A stretch of 64,000 nucleotides of DNA, taken from Citrobacter sp. MGH106 (GTDB lineage Bacteria; Pseudomonadota; Gammaproteobacteria; Enterobacterales; Enterobacteriaceae). Shown here in pieces: positions 7,949-18,444 of the stretch. The number at the start of each line of letters is the position of its first letter. Position 1 is the first letter of the stretch. The stretch spans positions 3,925,938-3,989,937 of the forward strand of contig NZ_KQ089822.1 in the NCBI RefSeq assembly GCF_001037495.1, read 5' to 3'. The notes under the pieces are model-generated. The model ran no database searches. It was not told the origin of the DNA and was given only the letters and a program-made list of their open reading frames with translations. A program made the position numbers and the translations under genes.

Positions 7949-10087
<2,139 letters not shown>

Positions 10088-10102
10088 TCCCTCACGGTTT
10101 TA

Positions 10103-10182
10103 TGCCCGGTGGCGCTACGCTTACCGGGCCTACAAACTGTGCATACATTGTAGGCCGGATAAGCAAAACGCCATCCGGCATG
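10103..10182. repeat. REP pair (BIME) between nrdD and nrdG
   Basis: Two inverted REP units: GCCCGGTGGCG...TTACCGGGC (10103-10132) and GTAGGCCGGATAAGC...GCCATCCGGCA (10150-10180). Placed inside the nrdDG transcription unit, they may affect mRNA processing or gyrase binding. Confidence 0.85.
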
Positions 10183-10192
10183 GTTAAGCGAA

Positions 10193-10657
10193 ATGAATTA
10201 TCACCAGTATTACCCTGTCGACATCGTCAACGGTCCCGGCACTCGCTGTACCCTGTTTGTTTCAGGGTGCGTGCACGAATGCCCCGGCTGCTATAACAAA
10301 AGCACCTGGCGGCTAAACTCCGGCCAGCCGTTTACCACAGAGATGGAAGACAAGATCATTGCCGATCTGAACGATACACGGATCCATCGTCAGGGGATCT
10401 CGCTGTCGGGCGGCGATCCACTTCATCCGCAAAACGTGCCGGATATTCTGAAACTGGTACAGCGCATTCACGCTGAGTGTCCGGGAAAAGATATCTGGGT
10501 GTGGACTGGCTACAAACTCGATGAGCTCAATGCCGAGCAAATGCAGGTGGTGGATCTCATCAACGTGCTGGTCGATGGTAAATTTGTTCAGGATCTCAAA
10601 GACCCGGCGCTTATCTGGCGCGGTAGCAGCAACCAGGTTGTGCATCATTTGCGCTAA
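10193..10657 (+). CDS. nrdG: Anaerobic RNR-activating protein NrdG
   Basis: Radical-SAM activase that installs the glycyl radical on NrdD. It has 154 residues, as in E. coli, with the 4Fe-4S ligand motif CxxxCxxC in CVHECPGCYN (residues 26-33) and a short flavodoxin-like radical-SAM core with the SGGDPL SAM-binding segment. The upstream start MNYHQYYPVDIVNG agrees with the family. A REP pair separates it from nrdD, and a hairpin follows it before the convergent accessory operon. Confidence 0.97.
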   Translation: MNYHQYYPVDIVNGPGTRCTLFVSGCVHECPGCYNKSTWRLNSGQPFTTEMEDKIIADLNDTRIHRQGISLSGGDPLHPQNVPDILKLVQRIHAECPGKDIWVWTGYKLDELNAEQMQVVDLINVLVDGKFVQDLKDPALIWRGSSNQVVHHLR

Positions 10658-10691: not shown

Positions 10692-12605
10692 TCAAAACCG
10701 GCTCACACACTCCATCGCAACTGCTTTGAATTCGTTAAAGTCACGGCAGGTACAGAGTCTTGCCATGGCGCGTTCGCGCAGAAAAGTAACGAAAATATCG
10801 TAGATTGCCATCGCCTCTTCGTACTCGCTTTTGCTGATGGCGAGTAAAAAGATCACGTGTGCGGTTTCATCTCCCCAGGCAATGCCCTGCGGAGCGAGGA
10901 CCGTGTAGACCACCGTTTTCTTGGCCAGCAAACCGAGCGCGTGCGGTAGTGCAATGCCGTCACCCAGCATGGTGCTAACGATGGCCTCACGTTCCACCAC
11001 CGAACTGACAAACTCCGCATCCACAAAACCTTCATCCTGCAACTGATGGCATAGTGTGTTGAACAGCGTCTGTTGATCCATTTGCCCGTCGACAATACGA
11101 AAATGCGTCGCATCGAAGTATTTGTCCAGCATCCATGGGCGGGTCCTGTCCACCAGCACCAGTTTACCAATTTGCTCCAGTTGATAATCTGTTGGAAACG
11201 GCGCAATCATCACTACGGGCTTATCTTTTTCGCTAATTCGCGCAGTAGAGATAACAAAGTCTTCGCTAATACTGTCCCGTTGTTCATAGTCTCGCAGCGT
11301 CACGGTACTTACAATTTCAATCTGTGAATACTTACGCGCCAGCACCGCTTCAATCATCCTTGCCATCGCATTTCCCGCATCACAGACCAGAAGTACACGG
11401 GGCTGTCGTTGGTAACCGATGTTGTAACTACGTTCCAGCCCAACACCAATATGCAGGACAAGGAAGCCAATCTCATTTTCACTGATCGTATACGGGGTGT
11501 ATTTCCCCCATCCCGACACGGCAGCAAGTGTCATGTCCCATGCCATTGGATAGTGCTGTTTAATATTTTCCAGCAGCGGATTAGGGATCATGATCTGGTA
11601 GCGTACCCGGGTGATCATCGTCTTAATATGCGTTAGCAGATCGGCATGCAGTTGCTGGTCATTCAGCAGGTTATAGTTGTACTGGGTGTTGATAAAACGC
11701 AGGATGTAATTAACCAGCGCCTCATCATCGTCAGCATTGATGGCACTGGGGGCGATCTCCTGAACCTGACGGGCAGCAATATGCACCTTCAGCCAGTTTT
11801 CTTCAAAAACGGAAAGCGGTTTATCTGCCAACTGGTGCAATACCGCCGCAATTTCCCGCGTAGCAAGGCACACCGCATGTTCGACTTCTTCTGCGGCGAA
11901 CTCAGGAAGTGGATACCCCTCGCTAATCCTGCGTACCGCCACCGCACAATATAAGCGCAGAAAAAGCTCGCCCTCATCGGTCAGGCTGATATGAAAACGG
12001 GAAAAAATATCCTGTAAAACAGGTTGCAACTGCTGCGGTACGCCAGCATTGAGCGCCTCTTCCATTACCAGCGGATGGGCAGGATCTTGCTGTGCCAGCG
12101 TCCACAGAAGATCGGTCAAACAGGCCCGAATCGCCATCTCGCTACCGAACAGCTTCATTCCATGCCGGGGGCGCGTTTCCAGCGTCAGATGATAACGTTG
12201 CAGGTGTTCACGCACCTCCGCCATGTCATTCTGCAGCGTCGCCCGACTGATGAACCATTCATCAGCTAAATCTTCCAACTTTAGCGAAAAAGCCGATGTC
12301 AGAAAACGGACCACCAGCCAGTGAACCCGTTCCCGGCTGGTACGCGGTATACGCAACAGCTGCTCTGGTTGCTGCGTTTGCAACGCGTGATAACTTGCCG
12401 GATCGTCAATTTTAAGCTGGTAGCCGTTGCCCCGACTGAGAACAAACTGTGCGCCATACTGGGTGAGTAGCGTATTCAGCGCGGTGATATCCGCTCGTAC
12501 AGTACGTGTGGAAACCGACAACCGCTGCGCCAGCTCATCCTGCGGCAGCGCCTCGTTTTGCAGCATGTCAAACAGCTGTGCTAAACGTTGGTTGGGGAAT
12601 CGCAC
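10692..12605 (-). CDS. BglG/MtlR-type regulator with PRD and PTS EIIB/EIIA domains
   Basis: A 637-residue multidomain regulator. Order: DNA-binding winged HTH (residues 5-60, NQRLAQLFDML...LSVSTRTVRADI), a second HTH (about 85-150), PRD1 (about 190-285, His275), PRD2 (about 295-395, His320 and His385), a galactitol-like EIIB domain with Cys408 in VLLVCDAG, and a mannitol/fructose-type EIIA domain with His555 in IALPHAL. Despite the usual BglG antiterminator label, the two HTH domains and lack of a CAT RNA-binding domain point to a DNA-binding activator like MtlR. PTS phosphorylation of the PRD, EIIB and EIIA residues would set its activity. It is the last gene of the nine-gene operon, 21 bp after the aldolase gene, and is its likely regulator. 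Confidence 0.9.
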   Translation of the reverse strand: MRFPNQRLAQLFDMLQNEALPQDELAQRLSVSTRTVRADITALNTLLTQYGAQFVLSRGNGYQLKIDDPASYHALQTQQPEQLLRIPRTSRERVHWLVVRFLTSAFSLKLEDLADEWFISRATLQNDMAEVREHLQRYHLTLETRPRHGMKLFGSEMAIRACLTDLLWTLAQQDPAHPLVMEEALNAGVPQQLQPVLQDIFSRFHISLTDEGELFLRLYCAVAVRRISEGYPLPEFAAEEVEHAVCLATREIAAVLHQLADKPLSVFEENWLKVHIAARQVQEIAPSAINADDDEALVNYILRFINTQYNYNLLNDQQLHADLLTHIKTMITRVRYQIMIPNPLLENIKQHYPMAWDMTLAAVSGWGKYTPYTISENEIGFLVLHIGVGLERSYNIGYQRQPRVLLVCDAGNAMARMIEAVLARKYSQIEIVSTVTLRDYEQRDSISEDFVISTARISEKDKPVVMIAPFPTDYQLEQIGKLVLVDRTRPWMLDKYFDATHFRIVDGQMDQQTLFNTLCHQLQDEGFVDAEFVSSVVEREAIVSTMLGDGIALPHALGLLAKKTVVYTVLAPQGIAWGDETAHVIFLLAISKSEYEEAMAIYDIFVTFLRERAMARLCTCRDFNEFKAVAMECVSRF

Positions 12606-12626
12606 GTCTTTTTCCTCATCAGTCAG

Positions 12627-13367
12627 TTAACCTACACAGGCCCTGGTGATCGCCAGCAGCTGGCGTACATCATCCGGGCGAGTGTTTCCATTCACCCTAT
12701 CAATAATAGAACTATAAATGTGAGGAATGATTTTGCTCACGCCTGCATCAAGCGCTATCTGCAGGATTTCCGCGAAGTTATCCAGGTCAATACCGCCAGT
12801 TGGCTCCAGCCAGAAGTCATGACGGGCGCAGGCTTCGGCCACAGCCTTGTACTCGTTACGGCACTTGAGACCGCCCATCGGGAAGTATTTAATCGAACTG
12901 CCGCCCATGTCTTTGAGCAGGGCGATAGCTGTTTCTAGTGGAACAATGCCATCCGGAGACTGGCTGCTCAGCGGCCCGGTGGAGATTTTGACCATACCAG
13001 GCGTTCCGGTAGGTGACACAAGACCATTGACCACCGTCTCATTCTGCCCCAGCAGCGCACGGCTGGTTGCGACGCCGGTAAAAACCTGGTTTACGTGCTG
13101 TGGCTGTACCTGGCGGGAGATTTCACTGACCATCGCCGACTGGTTGGGATCACCGGCTCCCAGGCCCACAGAGAGCGCATTGTCGATAAGCGCCGCATAT
13201 TCGCGCATATCCGCCACAGCGCTTTCAACATCCGGGTAATTTTTAGAGAGCACGCCGACCAGCACATGACCTTCAGCCGCCGCATAAATATCCCGGGCAT
13301 TCTCTTTGGAACCCGCCAGCACGTTCAGGCAAACGCGATCGCGATAAAAGTTAGGGGTCAGTTTCAT
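12627..13367 (-). CDS. KDGP aldolase family protein (DgaF-like)
   Basis: A 246-residue aldolase of the 2-dehydro-3-deoxy-phosphogluconate type, similar to Salmonella DgaF. It would split 2-keto-3-deoxy-6-phosphogluconate (KDGP) into pyruvate and glyceraldehyde-3-phosphate by a Schiff-base lysine, likely Lys160 in SSIKYFPMGG. The segments EPTGGIDLDNF and GVSKIIPHIYSSIID are typical of the barrel's phosphate-binding end. Its ATG overlaps the stop of the DgaE-like gene as ATGA, so the two are translationally coupled. In D-glucosaminate catabolism DgaE and DgaF act in this order. The substrate here is inferred, not shown. Confidence 0.88.
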   Translation of the reverse strand: MKLTPNFYRDRVCLNVLAGSKENARDIYAAAEGHVLVGVLSKNYPDVESAVADMREYAALIDNALSVGLGAGDPNQSAMVSEISRQVQPQHVNQVFTGVATSRALLGQNETVVNGLVSPTGTPGMVKISTGPLSSQSPDGIVPLETAIALLKDMGGSSIKYFPMGGLKCRNEYKAVAEACARHDFWLEPTGGIDLDNFAEILQIALDAGVSKIIPHIYSSIIDRVNGNTRPDDVRQLLAITRACVG

Positions 13368-14482
13368 GCTCTTTTCTCCTGCCGGGTCACGTCACCAATA
13401 CGACGCGCCACAATCTCCAGTTGTGCGCGATCGACGCTGCGCACATCCGCTTCAATAATCCCTTCGTTGGCTTTATAGCCACGGAAATAAATCGCGTACT
13501 CACCCTGTTTAAGCGCATCAACCAGTTCACCCGTGGCAATACCGGTCACCGCTTCGTCAAACTTAATCTCTGCACGGGCGATGTCGCGTCCTGCGCTATC
13601 CCATACCACGCGGGCGCTAACGCCATTAAAAGTATTCAGCGTATTGATAAATGGTGTCATTTTTTCCACCATTTCCGCGCCGCTCTCTTTCTGCGCGTTC
13701 AGATAGAGTTCAATGGCGCAGGTCAGACCGAGAATGCCTTCTTTGCCGACCTTCATTGCCCTCCCAATACCCGCTGTCTGGCGTTTTACCCACTCGACAT
13801 ACTGAGTTTTGCCGATCACCAGACCGCTGGTTGGCCCTTCAATGGCTTTCGCACCGCTATAAATCACCAGGTCCGCGCCAACACGGTAATAGCATTGCAA
13901 ATCTTCTTCCGCCGCCGCATCGACAATCAGCGGCAAGTTATGCGTACGCGCTACCACTGCGGCCTGCTCCACACTGAGCATGCTTTTCTGCACACAGTGG
14001 TGGGATTTGATATACAGAATGGCCGCCGTGCGTGGTGTAATAGCGGCTGCCAGTTGTGCCGCAGAGCATTCGTTAGCGTAACCCGCCTCCACCAACTTAC
14101 CGCCGCCAAGCGCCACCATGCTGCCAACCGGTGCGCCAAAGTTGACGTTGTGTCCTCTTGGCAGCACGATTTCATTGTTGTCGATTGGCGTAACGTGCAG
14201 ATTTTCCAGCAGCCAGTCACTGTCCTTAACCAACACAGCTGCAACCGACAGGGCAATCCCTGCCGAAGCGCAGGAGACGACCGTAGCCCCCTCTACTTCC
14301 AGTAGCTTTGCGATGTAGTCTCCTGTTTTGTTGACCAGATCTTTCATCTCAAAGTACTGATTCATCCCTTCCATCGCGGCCTGTACTACCTCCGGGCGCG
14401 GCGTGGAAACACCGAGCGCCGTCATGCGACCTGAAGTGTTAATCACCTGTTTTAAATCGTATTTTTCAAAAATCGAAGACAT
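13364..14482 (-). CDS. DgaE-family PLP-dependent ammonia lyase
   Basis: A 372-residue fold-type I PLP enzyme of the SelA-like/DgaE family. Lys212 in IYSGAKAIEGPTSG is the expected Schiff-base lysine, and LIVDAAAEED carries the aspartate that contacts the PLP ring. Salmonella DgaE removes ammonia from D-glucosaminate-6-phosphate to give KDGP. The pairing here with a KDGP aldolase suggests the same end reaction on an aminated sugar-acid phosphate or a related amino acid. The start at 14482 has GGGAG nine bases upstream and overlaps the end of the amidohydrolase gene by 17 bp. A sugar-acid kinase or PTS EII phosphorylating step is not evident in the operon. Confidence 0.88.
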   Translation of the reverse strand: MSSIFEKYDLKQVINTSGRMTALGVSTPRPEVVQAAMEGMNQYFEMKDLVNKTGDYIAKLLEVEGATVVSCASAGIALSVAAVLVKDSDWLLENLHVTPIDNNEIVLPRGHNVNFGAPVGSMVALGGGKLVEAGYANECSAAQLAAAITPRTAAILYIKSHHCVQKSMLSVEQAAVVARTHNLPLIVDAAAEEDLQCYYRVGADLVIYSGAKAIEGPTSGLVIGKTQYVEWVKRQTAGIGRAMKVGKEGILGLTCAIELYLNAQKESGAEMVEKMTPFINTLNTFNGVSARVVWDSAGRDIARAEIKFDEAVTGIATGELVDALKQGEYAIYFRGYKANEGIIEADVRSVDRAQLEIVARRIGDVTRQEKRA

Positions 14483-15599
14483 GTTCTGCGCTCCCTTGTT
14501 CGGTCATATAACCCTTGCCCGCACGTATTGCGGCAAGCGGCACCAGCAGTTGATCTGCCTGTAAGCTGTCGTTTTCTGCATCGACCAGCACGGCTGGCTG
14601 GCGTTTAAGCATAAAGAGGGTGAGATCAGCATCCTGACCGACCTGAAGTCGGCCTTTGTTTTTCAAACGCAGACCGTCAGCAGCATTGGCGGTCACGCAG
14701 TCAATAACCTGCGGTAGCGACATGCCGATGGCGAGAAACTTGGACATCACATTAGCAAGCGAATACACCGGGCCGCTGATGCGATTACGGCAATAGATGT
14801 CTGAGCTGATGGTATGCGGCAGAATGCCTAAACTGATGGCGCGCTTCGCGACCGCAAAGCTCAAGCTGGCGGTGCCGTGCCCGACATCAAGGCGAATACC
14901 ACGCGCGAGAGCCTGCGACACCGAGGCTCGCAGCTCGCCTTCTGGCGTCAGAATGCGGTTCGGTTTGCCGTTGTAACAGTGGGTAATTATATCGCCCGCC
15001 GCCAGGCGTTCGGCAATTTCATCCAGATCCGGCGGGTTATTACCAATATGTACCATCAACGGCAAGTCGCCGTTTTCGGCCTGCATCACTTTGGCATGCT
15101 CCAGCGGCGTAATGCCGTTTTCACCGACCACGCTGCTGCTCATCCGCGCCTTCAGGCCGACGATAAAATCAGGGTAGCGGTTGACCGCCTGTCGCACCGC
15201 ATCGGCATCAATGTTGGCCATGTTCGCCAGTTCATTTTGGGCGATAAGTCCAACGCGAGAGATATTCAGTAGCGCATAAACATCAGTGATCGCTTCACGA
15301 GTCAGCGTGTAAAAATCGTCAATATCATCAGCCCCGGTACTACCCGCATCGACCACCGTGGTGACGCCGGTGGCAATACCGACGCTGTCTGGCTGGTCAT
15401 GATAAATCGGGGATTTCGGGTAGCAGTGGACGTGAGAATCAATCCAGCCTGCGCTGACGTAGCACTCGCCGCGTAAGTCGATGGTTTTCGCCGCCGGGCT
15501 ATCAACGTCGCCCAGCGCCGCAATTTTGCCGTCTTTGAGCGCAATATCGCTCACCGTATCGTCAACCAGACGCGCATGGCGCAGGAGTAAATCAAACAT
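14466..15599 (-). CDS. Amidohydrolase/deacetylase family metallohydrolase
   Basis: A 377-residue member of the EF_0837/AHA_3915 amidohydrolase group. The metal site is visible: HxH in DSHVHC (about residues 55-57), a lysine in VGLKARMS that is probably carboxylated, histidines in MVHIGN and THCYNG, and the catalytic aspartate in TISSDIYC. Such enzymes remove acyl or similar groups; some relatives hydrolyse acetylated alpha-hydroxy acids in vitro. In this operon it would unmask the substrate before the PLP lyase acts. It overlaps the DgaE-like gene downstream and is separated from the DUF4311 gene upstream by a REP element. The true substrate is unknown. Confidence 0.85.
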   Translation of the reverse strand: MFDLLLRHARLVDDTVSDIALKDGKIAALGDVDSPAAKTIDLRGECYVSAGWIDSHVHCYPKSPIYHDQPDSVGIATGVTTVVDAGSTGADDIDDFYTLTREAITDVYALLNISRVGLIAQNELANMANIDADAVRQAVNRYPDFIVGLKARMSSSVVGENGITPLEHAKVMQAENGDLPLMVHIGNNPPDLDEIAERLAAGDIITHCYNGKPNRILTPEGELRASVSQALARGIRLDVGHGTASLSFAVAKRAISLGILPHTISSDIYCRNRISGPVYSLANVMSKFLAIGMSLPQVIDCVTANAADGLRLKNKGRLQVGQDADLTLFMLKRQPAVLVDAENDSLQADQLLVPLAAIRAGKGYMTEQGSAEHVFDF

Positions 15600-15611
15600 C
15601 GTTCTCTCCTT

Positions 15612-15650
15612 TGCCGGACAGGGCTGAGTAATCGCGCTGTCCGGCCTACA
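15612..15650. repeat. REP element inside the accessory operon
   Basis: TTGCCGGACAG...CTGTCCGGCC imperfect inverted repeat with REP-like CCGGCCTAC end, in the 62-bp gap between the DUF4311 and amidohydrolase genes. It divides the operon into a transport-like half and an enzyme half and may stabilise or cut the message there. Confidence 0.75.
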
Positions 15651-15661
15651 AAACAGCAGTG

Positions 15662-16306
15662 TTAGCTAATCGCAATCGGGAAGATTGATCCCAAAATCAT
15701 CGCACCGAGGATCGCCCCGCCAGTGATCGGTTTTTGCCACAGGTAAAACAGCAGCGCACCCGCCAGAGAGCCGATACCGATAGGGATGGAGGCAGTCATC
15801 GCACTGAGAATGATCAACGGCCCAAGGAAGCGACCAGAGGCGTTACCGGCCCCCATCATTACGTCAGCGCCATAGGTCGAGTCGCTCTGATTGATGGTGA
15901 ACTTACGCGCCAGAATGATGATGTAACCAATCGCCAGGCCAATCACCAGACCCGTGACCAACGAGGCGGCAAAGTTCGCTACCGGGAAAATAATGCCCGC
16001 GCCCAGCAACAATGCCGGGACGCCCAGGCCAACACCGGTCTGAATCGCCCCACCGATATCAAGGATCCCTACCAGCGAACCTTCAATGATTCGGGCAAAC
16101 AGGAAACTTGCGCCAAACGCCGCAACCGCGCCGTAGGATCCGGTGTCCATTCCCGCTTTCAGCATCGCCACAAATGCGACTTCGTTAAATGCGCCGATGC
16201 CGTACAGGTAGTACATGTGCGTTCCGGCAAAGACACCGGAGGAGAGCAGGCCAACGAAGATCGGGAACGACCAGTCGGCAAACCAAAAACCTTTATTCTG
16301 TTCCAT
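15662..16306 (-). CDS. DUF4311 family membrane protein
   Basis: A 214-residue, strongly hydrophobic protein with about six predicted membrane segments and many glycines (GSLVGILDIGGAIQTGVGLG, GIGSLAGALLF). It is always seen beside DUF4310, DUF4312 and SFCGS partners, and I infer that it is one half of a two-part inner-membrane transporter. No PTS EIIC motif, Walker motif or binding-protein gene is present. Its start has GGAGGTCA just upstream and the DUF4310 stop lies 11 bp before it. Biochemical function is not known to me. Confidence 0.82.
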   Translation of the reverse strand: MEQNKGFWFADWSFPIFVGLLSSGVFAGTHMYYLYGIGAFNEVAFVAMLKAGMDTGSYGAVAAFGASFLFARIIEGSLVGILDIGGAIQTGVGLGVPALLLGAGIIFPVANFAASLVTGLVIGLAIGYIIILARKFTINQSDSTYGADVMMGAGNASGRFLGPLIILSAMTASIPIGIGSLAGALLFYLWQKPITGGAILGAMILGSIFPIAIS

Positions 16307-16317
16307 GATGACCTCCG

Positions 16318-17094
16318 TTATTTGCCGCTGAGCGAGTTGTGGATCAGTTCGAGCCAGTTCGGCACGGTCAGATGGAAGGATTCGATCATCTTCATATCGA
16401 AGCCGCGGAAGAAGCCGCTCAGGACGAACAACGCGACGATAGCGACCATCATCACTTTGGTGACGTGGTTCCAGCCGCTCTCTTCTACGCCTTTACCAAT
16501 CAGAATACCGAGTACCAGACCCGGTACCGCATTACCCATAATGAGCTGTGCTGCACCACCAAAGACTGTCGCCCAGAAACCGGATTTCTTACCGGCATCA
16601 ATAGCCGCCAGCCAGAAGATCACCGGCATCACGGTATTGACCAGCAGGTTTGCCGCAGGAACCAACACCTTAACAGCGGTAACCTGCAATGCTTCCGGTA
16701 CGGATGAAGCGGTCAAGTTCAGAAAGGTCACGACGATCATGCCGATAACGCCACAGGCAATCGCCATGCGTTTAGGGTCATGCAGCGTTTCACCGACATT
16801 ACGGTTTTTCAGCATCAACGCCGCCGCGCCCCAGTTAGGAATGATGCGGTGATCGACATCCTGAGTGAACGCGCCGGCCGCCACGGATGATGCCCAGGCG
16901 TTGAAGAAGAAACCCAGACCAAATGAGAAGTGAGAAGCCGGATCCCCTTCGCAGGAATTCAGTTCTCCCAGGGTACGAAATGCGCCCATCCCCTGAGTGG
17001 TAGGCGCATGAAACATGCGTGCAGCCCCAGCGCCGACACCCACGCCAACCAGCGCGCCGATGATGAGCGATTTTATTAATATTATCAGGAACAT
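16318..17094 (-). CDS. DUF4310 family membrane protein
   Basis: A 258-residue inner-membrane protein with about six hydrophobic segments, starting directly in a membrane helix (MFLIILIKSLIIGALVGVGV). A conserved-looking polar loop near residues 40-60 reads LNSCEGDPASHFSFGLGFFF, a candidate substrate-binding segment. Together with DUF4311 it probably forms the membrane part of an uncharacterised transporter. AAAAGG eight bases upstream supports the chosen start. Gene spacing of 11 and 22 bp to its neighbours fits a single transcript. Confidence 0.82.
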   Translation of the reverse strand: MFLIILIKSLIIGALVGVGVGAGAARMFHAPTTQGMGAFRTLGELNSCEGDPASHFSFGLGFFFNAWASSVAAGAFTQDVDHRIIPNWGAAALMLKNRNVGETLHDPKRMAIACGVIGMIVVTFLNLTASSVPEALQVTAVKVLVPAANLLVNTVMPVIFWLAAIDAGKKSGFWATVFGGAAQLIMGNAVPGLVLGILIGKGVEESGWNHVTKVMMVAIVALFVLSGFFRGFDMKMIESFHLTVPNWLELIHNSLSGK

Positions 17095-17116
17095 ATTTAT
17101 GCCTTTTAATAGTAAA

Positions 17117-17416
17117 TCAGCGTTGCGTGACGAAATCCACCTTGTCGAGATTGATGGCAGTCACGTTGACGGTCACATCCAGCTCCACGCTGAAAGTGCG
17201 TCTTTCCCGGCGCATAAAGAAGAATAAAAATGCCTCTTTACGCACCGATTCACGCGCTTGAACAACCTGCACATCCTGTGGCTCAATACGCAGTAAGATA
17301 TGCGGCGATGCCTTCATCACCGCAGCCTGAACATGATTCAGGGCATCAGCAAAGGCGCGTGCTTTAGTGTCGCCTTTGCCGGTAACTCTCACCGTCGTGG
17401 TGAATTGCTCTTTCAT
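17117..17416 (-). CDS. DUF4312 family protein
   Basis: A small soluble protein of 99 residues with no signal peptide or membrane segment, alternating beta-strand-like patterns and a basic patch near residue 70 (MRRERRTFSVEL). The family is known only from this type of cluster. The ATG at 17416 is two bases after the SFCGS stop codon, indicating coupled translation; a GTG nine codons upstream is possible but has a poorer ribosome site and would overlap more. I suggest a cytoplasmic accessory subunit of the DUF4310/4311 membrane pair. Confidence 0.78.
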   Translation of the reverse strand: MKEQFTTTVRVTGKGDTKARAFADALNHVQAAVMKASPHILLRIEPQDVQVVQARESVRKEAFLFFFMRRERRTFSVELDVTVNVTAINLDKVDFVTQR

Positions 17417-17418
17417 AC

Positions 17419-17781
17419 TCAAGCGCCGTATTTCTTTTGCCACGCCTGTACCAGACGCTCGCCCAGTTCTTCCTTATCCATAAAGCCAAAGCCCAGCACG
17501 TTGCAGCCTTCGTTAATGGCGGTCACACCCTCATCCACTGAGCGCATGCCGTATTTTGCTTTGTAGCCATATTTGGTCTGCGCAGTGATGGCTCCCGCGC
17601 CGCCGCTGCCACAAAAAGAGATGCCAAAGGTGGCGTTTTCCGCTTTCATAACGTCGCCCAGTTTCATATCTGCCGCCACACCCGGCACCACGACCGCACG
17701 ACCACCAGCTTTCTCAACGCCTGCCGCCACTTTCTGGCCCTTACCCAGACGATCGCCAATCACCACAGTAATCTGTTCCAT
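17419..17781 (-). CDS. Glycine-rich SFCGS family protein
   Basis: A 120-residue soluble protein, MEQITVVIGDRLGKGQ..., named for its ISFCGSGGAGA segment (Cys57). The small alpha/beta look and a single cysteine in a glycine-rich loop recall PTS EIIB proteins, whose phosphocysteine sits in a similar loop, but here the loop is in the middle of the protein and not at the first strand. The segment also resembles the ACNTGAGAA region of E. coli YhfU as I remember it. The start at 17781 has AAGGAGC seven bases upstream; the longer open frame overlaps the PRD gene and lacks this site. Function unknown; possibly a phosphoryl or substrate relay for the transporter. Confidence 0.8.
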   Translation of the reverse strand: MEQITVVIGDRLGKGQKVAAGVEKAGGRAVVVPGVAADMKLGDVMKAENATFGISFCGSGGAGAITAQTKYGYKAKYGMRSVDEGVTAINEGCNVLGFGFMDKEELGERLVQAWQKKYGA

Positions 17782-17791
17782 CTTTTGCTCC

Positions 17792-18112
17792 TTAAAGGTT
17801 ATCTTTCGCGACTTCGAAATGTACCGACAGCAGCCAGGCCTCTTCTTCTGGAAGATTGCCAAACTCAGCTACGACGTCGCGGGCAAGCGCCATTGATTCG
17901 GCAGAAATTTCATCAAATAGGCTGGCATCAACGTCTGGCAAGGGCTCCCCCGTCACCGAGCGGTGCGCCATGGCGCGAACATGCGACGTCAGCATTTGTT
18001 CCTGTACGGCGTTGGGGATGATGTGGCGTTCACGCAACAGGGCATATACCTGCGCCAGCATGCGATCGGCCAGTTCACCAGACGGTGTCACCGGTTCCCC
18101 CATGTCATTCAT
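17792..18112 (-). CDS. Stand-alone PRD domain protein
   Basis: A 106-residue protein consisting of one PTS-regulation domain, with the two expected histidines at His44 (LTSHVRAMAHR) and His98 (LLSVHFEVA). It has no DNA- or RNA-binding domain, so it cannot regulate transcription by itself. It may be a phosphorylation-sensing partner of the operon's regulator or transporter, as YhfY is presumed to be in the E. coli yhf cluster. The start at 18112 is preferred to one 12 codons upstream because CGGAG stands five bases before it. It is the first gene of the operon. Confidence 0.8.
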   Translation of the reverse strand: MNDMGEPVTPSGELADRMLAQVYALLRERHIIPNAVQEQMLTSHVRAMAHRSVTGEPLPDVDASLFDEISAESMALARDVVAEFGNLPEEEAWLLSVHFEVAKDNL

Positions 18113-18198
18113 TGCAACTCCGTTATTCACTCGTTTCACCCCACTCATGGCTATGAGGGTAAACTAGCGGTGGAGGTTAAAAGTTTGTAGCGAGTTGT

Positions 18199-18218
18199 TT
18201 TCCACTTCGAAGTGGAAA
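18199..18218. promoter_or_regulatory. 20-bp perfect palindrome, candidate operator of the accessory operon
   Basis: TTTCCACTTCGAAGTGGAAA is a perfect 20-bp palindrome 86 bp before the first gene of the accessory operon. It has no loop, so it looks like a dimer-binding DNA site and not an RNA hairpin terminator. The operon's HTH-containing regulator is the natural candidate protein. Confidence 0.6.
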
Positions 18219-18282
18219 GGCGAGCAGCGATAGTGATCTGTGCCACAGAAAAGACGGAATTGGCGATTAATAACCAGCATAA

Positions 18283-18298
18283 CGTGATGGGGATCGCA
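18283..18298. promoter_or_regulatory. CRP-like site upstream of the accessory operon
   Basis: CGTGA-TGGGGA-TCGCA matches TGTGA-N6-TCACA at 8 of 10 positions. It lies about 82 bp upstream of the palindrome. Catabolite control of a carbon-source operon would be expected, but the site is not strong. No convincing sigma70 -35/-10 pair or sigma54 promoter was found in 18113-18444. Confidence 0.4.
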
Positions 18299-18444
18299 GG
18301 AGATTGCAGGTAAAGCACAAGCGGAAGGAATAACGGTCTGACGTTAAAAGTTAAAAAATGTGATGGGCATAACGTTTACTTATGGAGGGAATCTGATGGG
18401 TATGTCTTACCCGACCTACGTAGTCTGTAGGCCGGATAAATAAA

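Follow-up and report, generated by a model that had tools for sequence, protein, structure and literature searches.

Comparison with Described Systems

The described system closest to the locus studied here is the dga operon (DgaR and DgaABCDEF), which handles D-glucosaminate in Salmonella. The locus is a nine-gene operon of Citrobacter sp. MGH106, located in a stretch of 64,000 nucleotides (contig NZ_KQ089822.1, positions 3,925,938 to 3,989,937), hereafter the window, and four of its products, SFCGS, DUF4312, DUF4311, and DUF4310, are referred to as the quartet. In both operons, a DgaE-family lyase and a DgaF-type aldolase are encoded downstream of known or candidate transport genes, no kinase is present, and control is of the PRD type (PMC4987338; PMC9529869); these points also apply to the dga copies L163 and L164. 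However, dga has a mannose-family phosphotransferase system (PTS) in the place of the quartet and no deacylase, and it is controlled by a LevR-like sigma-54 activator instead of the Mga/PRD/EIIA regulator of the window. The lyases differ as well, since that of the window scores 373 bits against a cut-off of 600 bits in the equivalog model of D-glucosaminate-6-phosphate ammonia-lyase (DGL).

Seven window families match the hypothetical cluster EF_0829–EF_0839/AHA_3910–3917: all seven models from TIGR03577 to TIGR03583 are matched above their cut-offs by window proteins, and all seven are NCBI hypothetical equivalogs. Thus, the initial annotation correctly called the operon uncharacterised, but the operon is not undescribed, because these families were already named for EF_0829–EF_0839/AHA_39xx. 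The Enterococcus faecalis cluster (L015) differs in that the regulator comes first, that a Lac-type EIIC, a 99-residue protein, MupG, and a PfkB kinase are additionally present, and that the aldolase is unannotated and was matched in two pieces.

Two further systems share single features with the operon. In the Ong pathway of Pseudoalteromonas, N-acetyl-D-glucosaminate (GlcNAc1A) serves as a nutrient and is likewise deacetylated and deaminated to a 2-keto-3-deoxygluconate compound, but with an SSS transporter, the D-aminoacylase-type OngB, and KdgK, without a PTS, and with phosphorylation as the last step (PMC9537276). The glucitol (Gut) PTS of Rhizobium is, like the Bartonella case described below, plasmid-borne in an alphaproteobacterium, and its permease genes are directly followed by a gene whose product starts with HPr and enzyme I (EI) domains. 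It differs in having recognised IIA, IIB, and IIC components, which show no similarity to the quartet.

In the open-licence PMC literature, no paper on the quartet was found under DUF4310/4311/4312/SFCGS, the Pfam and TIGR identifiers, the EF_08xx tags, or the product names, and none under the Salmonella tags STM4442–4447. The catabolic half of the operon was already suggested by work on E. faecalis: a transposon-sequencing study proposed that EF0839 and EF2975 help to turn amino sugars into pyruvate and glyceraldehyde-3-phosphate, with possible fitness effects (PMC7701990), and an in-vivo screen found an EF0839/EF2975 promoter active in urine (PMC2912369). For the transporter half, no earlier suggestion was found in the open-licence PMC literature.

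Organization and Proposed Function of the Operon

The open reading frame (ORF) list of the window confirms nine ORFs, all on the minus strand (10692–18148), flanked by nrdG and a cytochrome b562 gene. SFCGS and DUF4312 are separated by 2 bp, the hydrolase and lyase genes overlap by 17 bp and the lyase and aldolase genes by 4 bp (ATGA), and the remaining computed gaps are 7, 22, 11, 62, and 21 bp. The arrangement and overlaps given in the initial annotation are thereby borne out, as are its gene identities, for which we accepted TIGR and Pfam assignments with scores above curated cut-offs (Table 1). Two profile scans at these cut-offs gave no match to an EIIC, ABC, or binding-protein family for any of the nine proteins, in agreement with the earlier remark that the operon contains no recognised transporter; its statement that no kinase is encoded also held. 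For the small PRD gene, the GTG start in Table 1 is probably correct and is preferred to the ATG at 18148 because of comparison with an annotated Klebsiella homologue.

Judged from sequence, the operon most likely encodes a PTS-dependent importer of a new sequence type together with a Dga-like pathway. The parts of this interpretation differ in strength: the quartet probably transports the substrate, uptake is rather likely to depend on the PTS, and the chance that the substrate is phosphorylated during uptake is about even. The explanation as a whole, i.e., phosphorylating uptake and Dga-like catabolism of an acylated 2-amino-2-deoxy-aldonate, is held with evenly balanced confidence. In the proposed mechanism, the membrane permease would consist of DUF4311 and DUF4310, joined on the cytosolic side by the subunits SFCGS and DUF4312; EI and HPr would donate phosphoryl groups, and the substrate would be released inside as a 6-phosphate. 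The EF_0837-like hydrolase would then strip the acyl group, the DgaE-like lyase would remove ammonia and water to give a keto acid of the 2-keto-3-deoxy-6-phosphogluconate (KDPG) type, and the aldolase would convert this into pyruvate and glyceraldehyde-3-phosphate. The PRD regulator would monitor the phosphoryl chain and, depending on its state, act at the palindrome upstream of the operon. Our best guess for the substrate is N-acetyl-D-glucosaminate or a stereoisomer or acyl variant of it; N-acetyl-D-glucosaminate fits all pathway steps, and its choice as the exact compound is a tentative guess.

Known enzyme II (EII) permeases fall into a few superfamilies. Here, four proteins of unknown type occupy the usual place of a phosphate-driven sugar importer, and therefore the operon may hide an unrecognised importer class. 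If so, a PTS-powered importer without a recognisable EII protein would constitute a new class, present in Enterobacteriaceae, enterococci, and Bartonella plasmids. Six protein families now labelled hypothetical or DUF would gain a function, and a pathway by which gut and environmental bacteria use an acylated amino-sugar acid would be defined.

Table 1. Genes and control elements of the operon (window coordinates).
Feature	Position	Strand	Remarks
Small stand-alone PRD protein, TIGR03582	17792..18148	-	Probable true start GTG 18130; H56, R63, E103, H110, E112 invariant (ORF numbering)
SFCGS glycine-rich protein, TIGR03577/PF14272	17419..17784	-	Possibly RpiB/LacAB-like; C58 invariant
DUF4312 small protein, TIGR03578/PF14189	17117..17416	-	Family profile match
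DUF4311 membrane protein, TIGR03580/PF14188	16318..17094	-	Candidate permease subunit
DUF4310 membrane protein, TIGR03579/PF14187	15662..16306	-	Candidate permease subunit
EF_0837-like amidohydrolase/deacylase, TIGR03583	14466..15599	-	Family profile and conserved residues
DgaE-family pyridoxal-phosphate ammonia-lyase, TIGR01437	13364..14482	-	K212 and Arg cluster R303/R334/R348 conserved
KDPG-type aldolase, DgaF family, TIGR03581/PF07071	12627..13367	-	Family profile match; NF047796 also above cut-off
Regulator: HTH_11, Mga, two PRDs, IIB-like stretch with C408, EIIA_2 with H555	10692..12605	-	Domain profiles
20-bp perfect palindrome TTTCCACTTCGAAGTGGAAA	18199..18218		Candidate operator for the PRD regulator
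CRP-like site TGTGGCACAGATCACT (putative)	18232..18247	-	Just upstream of the palindrome; conserved in the upstream-region alignment and the 80-locus consensus

Linkage to the PTS and Exchange of Transporters

Two related plasmids, of Bartonella sp. HY406 and HY761, carry the same nine genes in the window's order. On both, an HPr-EI gene lies 64 bp past the operon on the same strand, encoding a protein of 671 amino acids that combines HPr and enzyme I domains but lacks EIIA. No HPr-EI gene was seen near the operon in our locus set, i.e., 80 loci kept of at least 498 confirmed stretches from a genome-collection scan, all from Enterobacterales by their record titles. As a control, we used eight related EI fusion genes, picked because they were annotated, from the 60 records listed out of 193 plasmid records that matched. 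A recognised EIIC (ptsG, nagE, or fructose type) was adjacent or one gene off in 8/8 cases, and all five of the fusions that were scanned carry EIIA, unlike the Bartonella HPr-EI. The Rhizobium glucitol PTS is not an independent case because it was found via a glucitol search. An EI fusion beside the quartet therefore points to phosphoryl transfer to the transporter or, less simply, to the PRD regulator alone. The PTS link proposed in the initial annotation thus has stronger support than the letters of the window could give, and the Bartonella linkage makes it directly testable. The Bartonella operon sits on plasmids of about 55 kb from bat-derived strains, beside the type VI secretion gene tssA.

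The DgaE and aldolase pair occurs with different transporters elsewhere. In Lacticaseibacillus paracasei it accompanies a mannose-family PTS (IIABCD) in a cassette without a kinase, and the same combination, a mannose-type PTS without a kinase, is found in L163 and L164. In Priestia, the pair is found with a hydrolase, a GntP symporter, and a PfkB kinase, and in Clostridioides difficile with a Lac-type PTS, MupG, a hydrolase, and a PfkB kinase. Two PfkB queries gave no match in 80/80 quartet loci, which fits a quartet that supplies its own phosphate. The mannose-family DgaABCD is absent from the nine genes; two genomes (G166 and G370) possess a separate canonical dga operon besides the quartet operon. 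The putative uptake role assigned to the quartet in the initial annotation is supported by context, since the quartet stands in place of DgaABCD in dga-type operons and of GntP in Priestia.

Catabolic Enzymes

The hydrolase residues H56, H58, K150, H184, H207, and D267, which we take to be the amidohydrolase metal-ligand set, are kept in all 95 distinct sequences. Here and below, such counts leave out sequences that contain internal stops or fall below 80% of the length of the window protein, and most of the aligned homologues are close relatives, with real depth coming from Bartonella and Enterococcus. The closest solved entries are 8wzy, 2ics, and 2ogj, and the hydrolase group, cog3964, is reportedly the subject of Ornelas et al. 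2013. The lyase meets the TIGR01437 family model at 603 bits, and the aldolase meets the DgaF model NF047796 at 391.8 bits (cut-off 300).

In DGL, three Arg residues lie near the phosphate of D-glucosaminate-6-phosphate, according to Phillips and co-workers (PMC9529869). By alignment, the window lyase keeps the DGL proton-donor His and the three phosphate-site Arg residues. This cluster supports, without proving, a phosphorylated lyase substrate.

Quartet and Small PRD Protein

Two of the small proteins have invariant candidate phosphorylation sites: H56 and H110 of the small PRD protein are kept in 79/79 distinct homologues and C58 of SFCGS in 57/57. In the membrane protein DUF4311, H29, H55, H82, H105, and H252 are kept in 78/78. 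The small protein is a PRD homologue by sequence comparison: it resembles the solved stand-alone PRD 3nuf (phmmer E 1.7e-13) and PRD1 of the regulator (hhalign probability 87.6), with 14.5 bits against the Pfam PRD cut-off of 23 bits.

SFCGS may be RpiB-like. The GI..CGSG/CGTG loop of the RpiB/LacAB sugar-phosphate isomerases, with its invariant Cys, and their C-terminal helix align with SFCGS. Pairwise hhalign with RpiB gave an E of 7e-4 and a probability of 26, and RpiB (2vvr) was a PDB match at E 0.24. Yet SFCGS reaches only 16.1 bits (E 0.011) in Pfam LacAB_rpiB, under the gathering score of 24.7 bits. Its structure model (pLDDT 66, pTM 0.69) matched RpiB chains in 10/50 VIA-align rows, with Z values of 6.2–7.5 over 108–111 of 120 residues. 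However, unrelated families, i.e., tRNA-synthetase and response-regulator domains, score alike, and we regard the likeness as no more than likely; in a Foldseek search of the model no hit reached an E of 0.001 or lower, the best (0.031) being to another protein.

A more specific proposal follows this line and must be called doubtful. The operon might encode a new PTS permease class, in which the small PRD protein (H56/H110) would act as EIIA, the RpiB-like SFCGS would carry the phosphate on Cys58 as EIIB, and DUF4311/DUF4310 with DUF4312 would form a membrane part unrelated to EIIC/EIID. If true, two proteins that carry phosphoryl groups would have arisen by recruitment, one from a regulatory domain and the other from a sugar-isomerase fold.

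Several candidate relationships were rejected. SFCGS has a Cys motif similar to that of EIIB-Gut, but kinship was rejected on an hhalign probability of 0.2, with the Cys residues not aligned. For DUF4311 and DUF4310, hhalign gave no support for kinship with EIIC/EIID-Man, Gut, UlaA, Lac-type EIIC, GntP, or KdgT. An apparent relationship of DUF4310 to the aldolase (hhalign 99.4) is an artefact caused by a damaged Aeromonas locus, in which the DUF4310 start runs into the aldolase end; the signal was gone once this locus was removed. Among PDB sequences, DUF4311 has no relative, DUF4310 has one match at E 2.2, and DUF4312 has three weak matches of no use (best E 0.12).

Phosphorylating versus Other Modes of Uptake

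Several observations weigh against phosphorylating uptake by the quartet. No Pfam or hhalign match to known EII components was found; against the Gut A/E/B, Man A–D, Ula, and Lac profiles, which are shallow, the best quartet value was a probability of 3.5 (SFCGS with ManB). DUF4312 has no phosphorylatable His or Cys conserved across all 70 distinct sequences, and the AlphaFold model of DUF4311 failed (pLDDT 40) and was set aside. In E. faecalis, the quartet occurs alongside a Lac-type EIIC, MupG, a hydrolase, and a PfkB kinase. The Bartonella HPr-EI could serve the PRD regulator alone. The lyase Arg cluster is also present in kinase-bearing cassettes and in 8t7j, the substrate of which is unknown, and it therefore does not discriminate between cassette types. 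As for the suggested substrate, DUF4310 is not linked to lytic polysaccharide monooxygenases (LPMO): it occurs in 14/27 LPMO-positive and 55/122 LPMO-negative genomes (Fisher p 0.53), and no LPMO_10 match was found in the window genome itself. Finally, the host genome encodes KdgK elsewhere (524.9 bits), so an operon-borne kinase is not strictly needed.

The last point, together with the lack of similarity to EII proteins, favors the strongest competing explanation, which we regard as rather unlikely. In it, the quartet would be a non-phosphorylating, ion-driven importer, the acid would be deacylated, deaminated, and only then phosphorylated by a host kinase (KdgK), and the PTS would act via the PRD regulator only. 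The Ong pathway offers a precedent, since there GlcNAc1A is deacetylated and deaminated prior to phosphorylation (PMC9537276). However, a kinase comes with the symporter cassette in Priestia but not with the quartet loci, the operon is coupled to HPr-EI in Bartonella, and the lyase retains its phosphate-site Arg cluster, non-discriminating as this is. The initial annotation had left two options, that the transporter phosphorylates or that the substrate enters as a phosphate. The first is now the likelier of the two, but later phosphorylation by host KdgK had been overlooked.

It is improbable that the quartet is not a transporter at all, with SFCGS as a sugar-phosphate isomerase or binding protein, DUF4310/4311 as another membrane complex, and import by a different carrier. 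The likeness of SFCGS to RpiB, which concerns a sequence motif and, weakly, the fold, speaks for this possibility, but the nine genes include no other transporter, the quartet sits in the DgaABCD position, and it belongs to the best conserved portion of the operon.

An organophosphate exchanger, importing the substrate as a phosphate ester without phosphoryl transfer, would suit the lack of kinase matches in the 80 loci and the lyase Arg cluster, but is very improbable, as it leaves the neighboring HPr-EI of Bartonella without a reason and as 45/80 loci carry, between aldolase and regulator, a lactonase gene whose product has an N-terminus resembling, by eye, a signal peptide, so that the free acid would be formed outside the cytoplasm, in the periplasm.

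Distribution and Conservation

The operon is real and widespread. All nine genes are present in 79/80 fetched loci, the exception (L077) stopping at a contig edge, and order and strand are identical in 80/80 loci for the genes present; its content and order are thus beyond chance. DUF4310 was found in 12/398 genomes of a phylum sample, with the aldolase family in those same 12, and in 69/149 genomes of an Enterobacteriaceae sample. Six annotated plasmid-collection records contain it: two from Klebsiella, two from Bartonella, and one each from E. faecalis and Aeromonas caviae. In Escherichia coli, a megablast search, which would miss more distant copies, covered 20,395 records from 5,426 genomes without a near match, and among viral contigs DUF4311 and SFCGS have no relatives.

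The window genome comprises 4.95 Mb in two contigs, and its DUF4311 is 100% identical to that of C. portucalensis A60. Between the window and E. faecalis, identities are 73% for SFCGS, 71% for DUF4310, 67% for DUF4311, 67% for the aldolase, 52% for the lyase, about 48% for DUF4312, and 46% for the hydrolase. By these values, the quartet core is conserved between phyla better than most of the operon's enzymes.

Some loci deserve separate mention. In A. caviae NZ_AP026896.1 (L017), a deletion at about 9800–10350 fuses the DUF4310 start to the aldolase end; this damaged operon has no match for the hydrolase or the lyase. In E. faecalis, the 99-residue protein between EIIC and MupG (14959–15258 of L015) has no Pfam match, and its position suggests that it may be a missing EIIB. 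The Klebsiella pneumoniae plasmid NZ_CP098173.1 (L118, 3983–7676) encodes IIB-Gut fused to a four-carbon-acid kinase, adjoining a KdgT permease, an IIA-Gut protein, and RpiB. This mix of PTS domains with a non-PTS permease is perhaps another unorthodox phosphorylating system.

Control Region

In the regulator, H326 and C408 are kept in 85/85 distinct homologues and the EIIA residue H555 in 84/85, with E. faecalis as the exception. The putative operator of this protein is a palindrome without a second copy in the window or elsewhere in the genome, even when three mismatches are allowed. Across the 80 loci, it is perfect in 61 and has one mismatch in 17, two in one, and three in one (at most one in 78/80), and its distance to the start is 68–70 bp in 77/80. 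It is kept in Aeromonas with two mismatches, and in Bartonella a match at 67 bp with identical outer arms deviates at five positions; none was found in E. faecalis. Six second copies with two or three mismatches occur in the loci beyond nrdG, where nrdD is expected; as they share one coding-like context, we take them to be due to chance.

The conserved control region reaches upstream to about 18250. The CRP-like label in Table 1 relies on what we take to be the CRP consensus. A promoter scan found 5 candidates against 5.6 expected, and a terminator scan found 17 against 9.0 expected, mostly within genes. In one Klebsiella locus (L016), an annotated RelB/RelE-type toxin–antitoxin pair (16669–17185) lies between the regulator and nrdG.

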